A stretch of 39,160 nucleotides of DNA from Sphingomonadales bacterium. GTDB lineage: Bacteria; Pseudomonadota; Alphaproteobacteria; Sphingomonadales; Sphingomonadaceae. The notes below the pieces were generated by a model. It had not been told where the DNA came from, made no database searches, and worked only from the letters and a program-made list of their open reading frames with translations. The DNA lies in NCBI GenBank assembly GCA_019750455.1, contig JAIEOM010000007.1, forward strand, positions 1 to 39,160. The letters run 5' to 3'. Each line of letters starts with the position of its first letter. Positions within the stretch are counted from its first letter, which is position 1. Positions 21,153-35,594 of the stretch are shown here, in pieces. The position numbers and the translations under genes are program-made.

Positions 21153-21437
21153 ATGACCATTTCGCACGACCTGGACGAAGCTGGCCTTGACCGCGAACTC
21201 AAGGGCTTGATCGCCGATGTGCTGGGCCTCGATCCGGCGCAGGCGGAGGCTTTCGGGCCGGAGTCGGGCCTGTTCGGTCACCTGCCCGAACTGGATTCGA
21301 TGGCAGTCGCCGGGCTGCTGACCGAGATGGAAGACCGGCTGGGCATCGTTATCGAGGATGACGATGTCGATGGCGAGATGCTTGAAACCTATGGCGGGCT
21401 GCTGGCCTTCGCCAAGGCCAAGCTAGACCCCCGCTAG
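21153..21437 (+). CDS. Acyl carrier protein, exosortase A system-associated
   Basis: About 94 aa, phosphopantetheine site LPELDSMAVAGLLTEME. Confidence 0.9.
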   Translation: MTISHDLDEAGLDRELKGLIADVLGLDPAQAEAFGPESGLFGHLPELDSMAVAGLLTEMEDRLGIVIEDDDVDGEMLETYGGLLAFAKAKLDPR

Positions 21438-21480
21438 CCCCCTTCCAGACCCCTCCAGACCCGGCCCAGACCCCCCTCAG
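21424..21480. repeat. C-rich phased element, copy A
   Basis: tagacccccgctagcccccttccagacccctccagacccggcccagacccccc; C-runs start at 21428, 21438, 21450, 21460, 21471. First 31 nt match copy B at 28/31 without gaps. Confidence 0.8.
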
Positions 21481-21493
21481 GGTATCCTCCAGA

Positions 21494-22183
21494 GTGATTT
21501 TCACGTGGAACACACCGGCCCGTGACGGGAAGGACGGCAGCGAGGAAATGCTGCTCGCCTTTGATCGCGGGCGGCCGGTCAGGGTGCTCGTGTGCCCGGC
21601 ATGGTTCGACGAAGCAAACAAGCTGCGACGCTTCACCGTAGAGGTGATGCGGCGGCTGGACAGCGCCGGGATCGACAGCCTTTTGCCAGATCTACCCGGC
21701 TGCAACGAGAGCATGGTTCCGCTTGCGGAACAGACGCTTGAGGGGTGGCGTTCAACCATGGCCGCAGCTGCGGGAGCCTTGCGCGCGACCCATGTTCTCG
21801 CCATCCGCGCCGGAGCTCTGGTTGCGCCCGAGGGGCTGCCCGGCTGGCACTATGCCGCCCAAAGCGGGCCGAAACTCCTGCGCGGCATGATCCGCGCCCG
21901 CACCATCGCCGCGCGCGAGGCTGGAATTTTCGAGACTTCCGAGGACCTTATGGCGCAGGGCCGGGCCGCCGGCCTTGTCCTTGGCGGCTGGTCCATCGGC
22001 GGTGCCATGTTCGCCGCGCTGGAAAGCGCCGAGCCCGCCCTCGGCCCCGGCCAGTCCGACATCGCCCAGAGCACGGTGGGCGGCCCCGGCCCGTGGCTGC
22101 GTGCCGAACCAGGCGAGGATGCAGGTCAGGCCGGACGGCTCGCCGCGCTGATCGACGAAAGTGTCGGGAATCCAGCACCGTGA
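21494..22183 (+). CDS. Alpha/beta-hydrolase-like protein, probably exosortase A system-associated (hydrolase 2-like)
   Basis: VRVLVCPAWFDEANKLRRFTVEVMRRLDSAGIDSLLPDLPGCNES; GTG start overlapping a parS-like site; GTGA overlap with the next gene. Confidence 0.6.
   Translation: MIFTWNTPARDGKDGSEEMLLAFDRGRPVRVLVCPAWFDEANKLRRFTVEVMRRLDSAGIDSLLPDLPGCNESMVPLAEQTLEGWRSTMAAAAGALRATHVLAIRAGALVAPEGLPGWHYAAQSGPKLLRGMIRARTIAAREAGIFETSEDLMAQGRAAGLVLGGWSIGGAMFAALESAEPALGPGQSDIAQSTVGGPGPWLRAEPGEDAGQAGRLAALIDESVGNPAP
21497..21512 (-). other. parS-like ParB-binding site, copy A (14/16)
   Basis: Minus strand TGTTCCACGTGAAAAT; differs from TGTTCCACGTGAAACA only in the last two bases. Confidence 0.55.
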
Positions 22184-33841: not shown

Positions 33842-34372
33842 GTGGCGATTGACGAGAGCCGGGTCTTCAAGCCGATCAACATTGCCGTGCTGACTGTCTC
33901 CGACACCCGCACGCCGGAAACGGACACTTCGGGCGATATTCTCGCCGCCCGCGTGACCGGGGCCGGGCACAATCTGGCGGCGCGGATGATCGTAAGGGAT
34001 GATGCCGCGCTTCTCGCCGCGCAGTTCGAAGCGTGGATTGATGATCCGGCGGTCGATGCAGTGGTCTCAACCGGCGGCACCGGCCTTACAGGCCGCGATG
34101 TGACACCCGAGGCGCTGGCGCGGATCGAGGGTGGGCGCGAAATCCCCGGCTTCGGCGAGCTGTTCCGCTGGCTCAGCTTCAAGACCATCGGGACAAGCAC
34201 GGTGCAAAGCCGCGCGATGGCCATGGTGGCGCGGGGGACGTATATCTTCGCCCTCCCGGGATCGAACGGCGCGGTGAAGGATGGCTGGGACGGGATCCTC
34301 GCCGAGCAGCTCGACAGCCGCAATCGCCCCTGCAACTTCGTGGAGCTGATGCCGCGGCTCAAGGAAGTATAA
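33842..34372 (+). CDS. moaB: Molybdenum cofactor biosynthesis protein B
   Basis: NIAVLTVSDTRTPETDTSGDIL, VVSTGGTGLTGRDVTPEAL, FALPGSNGAVKDGWDGIL; GTG start. Confidence 0.95.
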   Translation: MAIDESRVFKPINIAVLTVSDTRTPETDTSGDILAARVTGAGHNLAARMIVRDDAALLAAQFEAWIDDPAVDAVVSTGGTGLTGRDVTPEALARIEGGREIPGFGELFRWLSFKTIGTSTVQSRAMAMVARGTYIFALPGSNGAVKDGWDGILAEQLDSRNRPCNFVELMPRLKEV

Positions 34373-34386
34373 GCCCGTCAGCTGCA

Positions 34387-34462
34387 CCCCGAGCGGTCCA
34401 GACCCGGGTTAGACCCCGCCTAGCCCCCCTCCAGACCCCTGCTTGCCCCCGACTCGCCCCCC
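34387..34462. repeat. C-rich phased element, copy B
   Basis: C-runs start at 34387, 34403, 34414, 34424, 34436, 34446, 34457; the last five have the same 10-12-10-11 spacing as copy A. Confidence 0.8.
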
Positions 34463-34470
34463 ACTTGCCG

Positions 34471-34502
34471 CGGCATTTTGCCTTGGCAAAGGCCGTTTTG
34501 TT
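34471..34502 (+). terminator. Rho-independent terminator after moaB
   Basis: CGGCatTTTGCCttGGCAAAgGCCG followed by TTTTGTT. Confidence 0.55.
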
Positions 34503-34506
34503 CCGT

Positions 34507-34528
34507 AAATGTTCCACGTGAAACATTT
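34507..34528 (+). other. parS site, copy B (16-bp core 34510-34525)
   Basis: AAATGTTCCACGTGAAACATTT; core TGTTCCACGTGAAACA fits the widely conserved TGTTNCACGTGAAACA parS consensus; near-perfect 22-bp palindrome. Confidence 0.88.
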
Positions 34529-35594
34529 GCCGGTCAAAGGTCGCGGAGCGCAATCCGGATTGGTCCCCACCCGCTTCGGGCTCGCCGAACGGGAGGTCGA
34601 TGGCGACTGGCGCGATCATGTGCAGACGCTGGATGGTCCTCCGGTCAAACTGCGCACCACGGTGACCGAGGAACGACCGAAGTCGATCCTGACCTTCAAC
34701 CAGTCCCCCGATGTGCCCTTCGACCGCTCGATCAACGCCTATCGCGGGTGCGAACACGGCTGCATCTATTGCTTTGCGCGGCCAACCCACGCCTACCACG
34801 ATCTCTCCCCCGGCCTCGATTTCGAGACGAAGCTTTTCGCCAAGCCCGAGGCGGCATCGCTGCTGCGCAAGACACTGGCGAAAAAGGGCTATTCTCCGAA
34901 GCCGATCGCGATGGGGACCAACACCGATCCCTATCAGCCGATCGAGCGGGATTGGCGGATAACCCGCCAGATCCTCGAAGTGTGCCTCGAGGCCCGCCAT
35001 CCGGTGACGATCACCACCAAGTCCGACCGGGTGCTGGCGGATGCCGATCTGCTGGAGGAGATGGCGCGCGAAAAGCTGGTGGCGGTGTCAATCTCGGTGA
35101 CAAGCCTCGATCCGGTGCTGTCCGCCAAGCTCGAGCCGCGCTGCGCTGCGCCTTCCAAACGGTTGGCGGCACTGGGGAAACTGGTCGAACGCGGCGTTCC
35201 GGTGCACTGCTCGCTGTCGCCCGTCATCCCCGCGATCACCGACGAATTCATCGAGAGCATCATCGCCCGCGTGGCGGAACTGGGGGTGCGCAGCGTCAAC
35301 TGGATTCCCCTGCGCCTGCCCCACGAAGTCGCCCCGCTGTTCCGCGAATGGCTGGCGGTCCATTACCCCGATCGCGCCGGGAAAGTGATGGGGACCGTCC
35401 GCGAAATGCGAGGGGGCCGCGACAACGATCCCAACTTCCACAGCCGCTTCAACCCGCAGGGCGTCTGGGCCGATCTGATCCGCGCGCGCTTCAATGTGGC
35501 GTGCAAGCGGGCGGGCATAGGGAAGGCGCGGTTCGAACTCGATTGCTCGCGGTTCAGAGCGCCCGAGGTGGGCGGGCAGCTGCGGCTGATCTAG
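34509..35594 (+). CDS. PA0069-family radical SAM protein (SplB-like)
   Basis: YRGCEHGCIYCFARPTHAYHDLSPGLDFETKLFAK; N-terminus MFHVKHL encoded by parS. Confidence 0.92.
   Translation: MFHVKHLPVKGRGAQSGLVPTRFGLAEREVDGDWRDHVQTLDGPPVKLRTTVTEERPKSILTFNQSPDVPFDRSINAYRGCEHGCIYCFARPTHAYHDLSPGLDFETKLFAKPEAASLLRKTLAKKGYSPKPIAMGTNTDPYQPIERDWRITRQILEVCLEARHPVTITTKSDRVLADADLLEEMAREKLVAVSISVTSLDPVLSAKLEPRCAAPSKRLAALGKLVERGVPVHCSLSPVIPAITDEFIESIIARVAELGVRSVNWIPLRLPHEVAPLFREWLAVHYPDRAGKVMGTVREMRGGRDNDPNFHSRFNPQGVWADLIRARFNVACKRAGIGKARFELDCSRFRAPEVGGQLRLI

Follow-up and report, generated by a model that had tools for sequence, protein, structure and literature searches.

The window – the whole 39,160-nucleotide stretch of DNA analyzed here, from contig JAIEOM010000007.1 of a Sphingomonadales bacterium – contains two copies of a C-rich array, each lying upstream of a 16-bp palindrome that matches or resembles parS. 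The relevant features are as follows.

21153..21437, + strand: acyl-carrier-protein-like (ACP-like) gene (PP-binding, PF00550), upstream of copy A
21424..21476, + strand: C-rich array copy A, sequence TAGACCCCCGCTAGCCCCCTTCCAGACCCCTCCAGACCCGGCCCAGACCCCCC, supported by position weight matrix (PWM) units and whole-genome matches
21497..21512, no strand: parS-like palindrome ATTTTCACGTGGAACA, two mismatches to TGTTYCACGTGRAACA, in register with copy A
33842..34372, + strand: molybdopterin-binding MoaB/MogA-type gene (PF00994), upstream of copy B
34398..34462, + strand: C-rich array copy B, CCAGACCCGGG TTAGACCCCGC CTAGCCCCCCT CCAGACCCCTG CTTGCCCCCGA CTCGCCCCCC
34500..34514, + strand: LexA-box-like GTTCCGTAAATGTTC (GTTCN7GTTC), overlapping the start of the copy-B parS, upstream of the radical SAM gene
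34510..34525, no strand: parS TGTTCCACGTGAAACA next to copy B, perfect match
34560..35594, + strand: radical SAM gene (PF04055), downstream of copy B; start as called, with the ORF open from 34509

Copy A begins within the final codons of the ACP-like gene (phosphopantetheine domain PF00550) and comprises five units of an 11-bp type (CTAGACCCCCG, CTAGCCCCCTT, CCAGACCCCTC, CCAGACCCGGC and CCAGACCCCCC), whose C-runs start at 21428, 21438, 21450, 21460 and 21471, that is, at intervals of 10, 12, 10 and 11 bp. Measured upstream from the parS-like site, the PWM units lie at 74, 63, 52, 42 and 31 bp: these are positions on the genome-wide lattice described below. The two copies align without gaps (21424–21454 against 34410–34440, 90% identity over 31 bases). 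The units of copy B lie 112, 101, 90 and 79 bp from their parS and are off the common lattice, probably because a promoter segment carrying the LexA-like box separates array from palindrome. An initial annotation, made from the sequence alone, had claimed the same C-run intervals for copy A, a start inside the last codons of the ACP gene, and recurrence of the element before the other parS (28 of 31 positions, gapless): all three claims held, the first of them exactly. At the end of the contig (39098–39157) the window also contains a low-complexity CCGCC/CCCCCGCCG repeat, which is apparently coding.

Pairing of arrays with parS: side, orientation and register

The array consists of 11-bp units with the consensus YYAGACCCCYN, in which the bases between C-runs (A, G, A) are conserved; the number of units varies between copies. 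A two-unit pattern (CCAGACCCC N0-12 CAGACCC) is found at 23 places in the 3.06-Mb window genome (G000, both strands), 21 of them with exact 11-bp unit spacing, while the reversed control of the pattern is found at none. The same pattern occurs at 58, 20, 9 and 8 places in four congeners and at few or none in most other tested relatives; a three-unit search of named genomes returned records mostly from Erythrobacter and Porphyrobacter. Arrays were further identified with a three-unit weight matrix, trained on the arrays of G024 and G000 without reference to parS (the complete genome G003 was outside the training set), for which the reversed-sequence control gave 0–1 matches at the cut-off. In further genomes the spelling of the unit drifts (CTAGACCCC, CTTGACCCC, CTAGACCTAC) and the lattice remains unchanged. 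Some array copies are located inside called genes (L032:8155–8209; L102:9805–9860), and in L102 the array is followed by a perfect parS within an apparent coding region.

Arrays and parS are paired, and the pairing is one-sided. In G024 (788 kb sampled) a parS lies no more than 150 bp downstream, in the orientation of the array, of 35 of 41 strong arrays, and upstream of none; in the window genome (409 kb sampled) the corresponding numbers are 10 of 14 and zero. For the two genomes combined, 45 of 55 strong arrays are accompanied by a same-side parS within 150 bp, where chance predicts a parS near an array in about 0.3% of cases. Because the stretches from G024 and G000 were picked for containing arrays, the reverse fraction – parS sites that carry an array – is biased in these two genomes; the whole-genome fraction from G003, where arrays are found at 47 of the 57 non-origin parS sites, is free of this bias. 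Not one of 22 parS sites in the origin clusters of three genomes has an array. The association is not absolute: approximately one fifth of dispersed parS sites are without a recognizable array, and approximately one fifth of arrays are without a nearby parS.

The distance between array and palindrome is equally constrained. At the 53 dispersed sites evaluated, array units begin 20, 31, 42, 53, 64, 75 and 85 bp ahead of the parS 16-mer (±1) and almost never in between, with a best lattice period of 10.75 bp. Since units within one array are not independent, phase was evaluated using only the unit closest to each parS, which contributes one value per site: the register is strong for the 53 dispersed sites (R=0.87, Rayleigh p 4e-18), for those taken from eight additional genomes (R=0.85, p 3e-11) and for the whole of G003, which played no part in training (R=0.93, n=47). 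Insertions and deletions in the arrays are confined, such that phase is kept within about 1 bp over 5–6 units. It nevertheless remains possible that the register stems from exact 11-bp duplication off a fixed anchor, without helical selection.

These data bear on two further claims of the initial annotation. Helical phasing held, being evident as a register of units with parS in several genomes, and so did association with parS: arrays and parS are paired on one side, in one orientation and in one register. The annotation had named two outcomes that would refute it. One – copies common across the genome and unrelated to parS – is met only in part: copies are indeed common, but so is parS, and the two go together. 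The other, C-rich drift without conservation, is excluded by the absence of reversed-pattern matches and by the register, which together rule out chance as the source of the arrays. Beyond the view of that first reading were the roughly 20-fold amplification of parS itself and the lack of arrays at origin parS; the original observation thus holds, and understates the extent of the element.

The palindromes of dispersed sites are themselves asymmetric. Position 0 of the 16-mer, its last base toward the array, is G or C, not T, in 20 of 53 cases, and A occupies the distal end in 50 of 53: the weaker half-site is the one facing the array.

Dispersed parS across the chromosome and within one ParB clade

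On the 3.09-Mb chromosome of the congener G003 about 57 non-origin parS sites are spread with a mean gap of 55 kb, the terminus included (there are at least 64 distinct parS sites in all). The expectation of origin-proximal clustering was not met: counted per tenth of the distance from the origin cluster, dispersed sites number 6, 9, 4, 5, 5, 6, 4, 7, 5 and 5. Nor is there depletion around the terminus (approximately 2.5 Mb, set by the position opposite the origin cluster), where sites are found at 2403, 2476, 2504 and 2555 kb. An ordinary origin parS cluster is also present, flanked in the window genome by parA, parB, gidB, gidA, trmE, rho and hemE; at C289:19539–20165 of this genome, origin parS lies inside the gidB coding sequence, reading as VSRET and FHVKH peptides.

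Replichore polarity of the kind known from KOPS was considered and rejected, given that 23 arrays in G003 point toward and 24 away overall. Around the origin cluster (G003:C1, 600–1340 kb) arrays at distances of up to 400 kb point to the origin in a ratio of 11:2, and those farther away in a ratio of 12:22; this is no more than a lead, because the 400-kb limit was set after inspection of the data.

With respect to genes, 30 of 53 sites are located at convergent gene ends (p 8e-11), and sites are rare between divergent genes. For tandem gene pairs (three genomes) the direction from array to parS agrees with that of transcription 25 times out of 35 and is antisense the other 10 times; in complete G003 the bias is weak (11:7). 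Gene contexts were taken from sampled stretches, with genes called by our own caller.

Positions are conserved between species, so far as they can be compared. When flanks with clear synteny were projected among three sampled genomes, the site was present with its array in most cases, the comparison being limited to few loci. Counting the window genome, 10 of 12 genomes of the parS-rich clade have a parS at the copy-B locus, 8 of these 10 with an array, and none of seven parS-poor genomes has one there; in four of the latter type (G224, G169, G020 and G018) a LexA-like box without parS lies downstream of MoaB. The parS sequence, moreover, has changed in concert in one species: in G021, TGTTCCACGTGGAACA replaces the common TGTTTCACGTGAAACA at the listed exact sites of both classes, one mixed site excepted, showing that at the listed sites origin and dispersed copies changed together. 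This joint change and the conservation of positions give the dispersed sites the appearance of genuine ParB sites; for binding by ParB in vivo the support is indirect, consisting of the joint change and of the agreement, described next, between parS richness and the ParB clade.

The extra parS sites, which extend over the whole chromosome and number about 15–80 non-origin copies per genome, are restricted to one clade of Erythrobacter-type bacteria. The window genome has 63 sites at up to one mismatch, compared to no more than 12 in any of 397 further genomes sampled from the phylum (same threshold); five congeners have 61–89 sites at up to two mismatches, and within the order more than eight sites are found only in members of the genus to which the window genome belongs. 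A survey of 100 genomes of this genus revealed a bimodal distribution of parS counts that follows the sequence of ParB: each of the 41 genomes whose chromosomal ParB shares 78% identity or more with the window genome's ParB is parS-rich (11–88 sites, with G021 counted by its own parS type), while genomes with a complete ParB at most 75% identical have 1–5 sites in the setting of the genus survey (at two mismatches parS-poor genomes have 4–12, chance matches included). The 34 parS-rich species form one group in a ParB tree, and parS-poor G185 is placed next to it; support is 0.99 with G185 included and 0.45 with it excluded. The position of G185 therefore implies either one gain, or one gain and one loss, of parS richness. 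Allowing for that single loss, the spread of parS arose once, in one ParB clade.

Two apparent exceptions were examined and set aside. G021 seemed to be a parS-poor member of the clade; it has 63 sites, which the first pattern missed (those listed are of the TGTTCCACGTGGAACA type). The apparent loss of ParB from parS-rich G207 is an assembly break, the contig ending inside trmE beside parAB. A comparison of ParB residues between parS-rich and parS-poor genomes gave nothing convincing and clade-specific in the DNA-binding domain: residues meeting the criteria are three in a PRR/KKK stretch near the N-terminus, plus a one-residue insertion (four of the 33 parS-rich rows in this comparison were wrong reading frames).

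A composite parS element, its possible role and alternatives

The sequence evidence shows that most non-origin parS sites of this clade are composite, each joined to a one-sided, phased array that the origin cluster lacks. In this layout a row of 11-bp YYAGACCCC units is followed, after a gap of about 20 bp or more, by parS. The closest known system is the chromosomal ParABS centromere (parS, the ParB CTPase clamp and SMC recruitment), with which it shares several components: the 16-bp parS is identical (TGTTYCACGTGRAACA), ParA and ParB of the usual kind are encoded beside gidAB, and there is an origin parS cluster. It differs in having about 15–80 extra parS sites, the terminus included, each usually with the phased array on one side. 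Textbook ParABS keeps parS at the origin because it is there that ParB nucleates segregation and SMC loading. In experiments with Pseudomonas and Caulobacter extra parS was tolerated only near the origin; outside the clade described here the zone of tolerance is put at about 600 kb around the origin, and no natural set that is quoted exceeds 20–23 sites, which lie near it (PMC7333895). Bacillus subtilis likewise has parS beyond a tight cluster, an arrangement called counterproductive through SMC collisions (PMC8357415), but this amounts to eight sites over 0.75 Mb, as against 57 over 3.09 Mb here, and phased arrays are not known to occur at B. subtilis parS.

Extra parS at a long distance from the origin does harm in those species where it has been tested, and in this clade the non-origin copies are the ones that bear arrays; we therefore propose an array-bound factor that modifies ParB. 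According to this hypothesis the chromosomal ParB-CTP clamp would load at dispersed parS (an inference, in the absence of binding data), and the array would most simply be a platform next to ParB, on one face of which a DNA-binding protein, as yet unidentified, binds with one protomer per helical turn. The protein so bound would be predicted to contact or block ParB on the array side, and dispersed parS would then behave unlike its counterpart at the origin. The likeliest routes to such a difference are a brake on one-sided ParB sliding and on SMC loading, and the exclusion of incoming transcription. Sites far from the origin would thus be tolerated and usable as chromosome-wide anchoring or organizing points. 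A comparable arrangement is known from plasmids: the iteron-type centromere parC of ParMRC consists of direct repeats of about 11 bp that are bound by ParR. The arrays described here share with iteron centromeres direct repeats of approximately one helical turn and (by inference) recognition by a DNA-binding protein, but have a different sequence, are chromosomal, and are fused in register to parS.

We lean, by a modest margin, toward the explanation that the array sets non-origin parS apart or allows it to be tolerated: the job of the array is inferred and there are no functional data. A bolder reading is that the origin centromere of this clade became a chromosome-wide ParB-loading network, in which each site is paired with a phased array and an undescribed partner gives direction and renders parS harmless at places remote from the origin. 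Taken as a whole, this reading falls a little short of what we would be prepared to favor; if true, it would mean a new chromosome-organizing system and not just a larger set of parS sites. At issue in either case is parS that has spread across entire chromosomes in some 40 sampled species, with most non-origin copies carrying a specific phased element. The system makes it possible to test why parS is normally confined to the origin and what can lift that confinement, and may reveal a new partner of ParB. Our search of the open-licence literature found no paper on dispersed parS in Erythrobacter or Sphingomonadales.

Alternative explanations must account for the same facts. One is that the array is an RNA signal, namely a C-rich, G-poor Rho-utilization (rut) sequence following stop codons, with parS acting as a pause or road-block: the composite would be a Rho-dependent terminator that shields parS from transcription. 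The resemblance is real, in that pyrimidine-C occurs every 11 nt or so on the C-rich strand and arrays follow gene 3' ends, and the C-strand is the sense strand in the 25 of 35 tandem pairs noted above (one-sided p about 0.008). But an RNA signal does not require a register of about 1 bp with parS, and the register seen here is one fixed in DNA, between the array and a palindromic protein site; it is this register that makes a signal acting in RNA only unlikely. The strand bias, moreover, is weak: about 30% of tandem cases are antisense, the excess in complete G003 is slight, and single motifs look strand-neutral in the 409-kb window-genome sample, the bias emerging in array-level counts. A hairpin or terminator formed in RNA by the parS dyad was also rejected: covariation is weak (p about 0.01, two positions), the MFE change is 0.8 kcal/mol and, while there are extended dyads, no T-run follows parS in the listed flanks, so that weak paired changes and the missing T-run together speak against an intrinsic terminator. 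The initial annotation had raised the possibility of a G-quadruplex, and as a rival this would have the G-rich strand fold beside parS and stop polymerases or sliding clamps. The pattern (C3 N1-7)x4 is satisfied on the array side at 32 of 53 sites, compared to one of 53 on the other side. It is present, however, at just three of nine sites in the G003 sample, where the lattice is intact, and a quadruplex has no need of the conserved A, G and A between C-runs. Because the register persists at sites without the pattern, this part of the annotation is not needed, and we think it very improbable as the explanation. A role for Rho or a G-quadruplex in addition is conceivable; neither explains the register.

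Two further alternatives concern the nature of the sites themselves. Array and parS could be a selfish or drifting extragenic repeat, similar to REPs or BIMEs, that captured parS and multiplied, in which case register and side would reflect copying from a single ancestor and not function. Consistent with this are dozens of extragenic copies with a preference for gene 3' ends, the one-sided composite structure, the variable number of units and the single origin in one clade. Against it, the copies, when compared, share no common sequence beyond lattice and parS core, and have neither conserved flanks nor conserved element ends; sites occupy projected orthologous positions in different species (at the few loci that can be compared); array indels preserve phase; and the species-wide sequence change in G021 takes in the dispersed copies. 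We regard this possibility as unlikely. Less likely still is that the dispersed palindromes are targets of some other factor that prefers the parS sequence, in a manner resembling nucleoid occlusion by Noc or SlmA. Noc is a ParB paralogue whose own site differs from parS by two bases (PMC7333895). Noc sites are excluded from the terminus. In number and genome-wide spread the sites described here resemble those of Noc in B. subtilis (the Noc/NBS system of Bacillus), which likewise are dozens of dispersed 16-bp ParB-type sequences. They differ in that the 16-mer is the parS consensus itself, and ParB should therefore bind it (this is inferred, there being no binding data); in that a ParB search of G000 and G003 returned the chromosomal ParB as the sole strong match, with no close paralogue in either; in that G003 shows no terminus gap; and in that dispersed and origin sites changed together in G021.

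The composite element accounts for most non-origin sites, and not all dispersed parS need belong to it. Array-free parS sites are present at apparently the same place in three species (L120, L123 and L129, which have similar upstream sequence), and these may represent a second, array-free class of dispersed parS.
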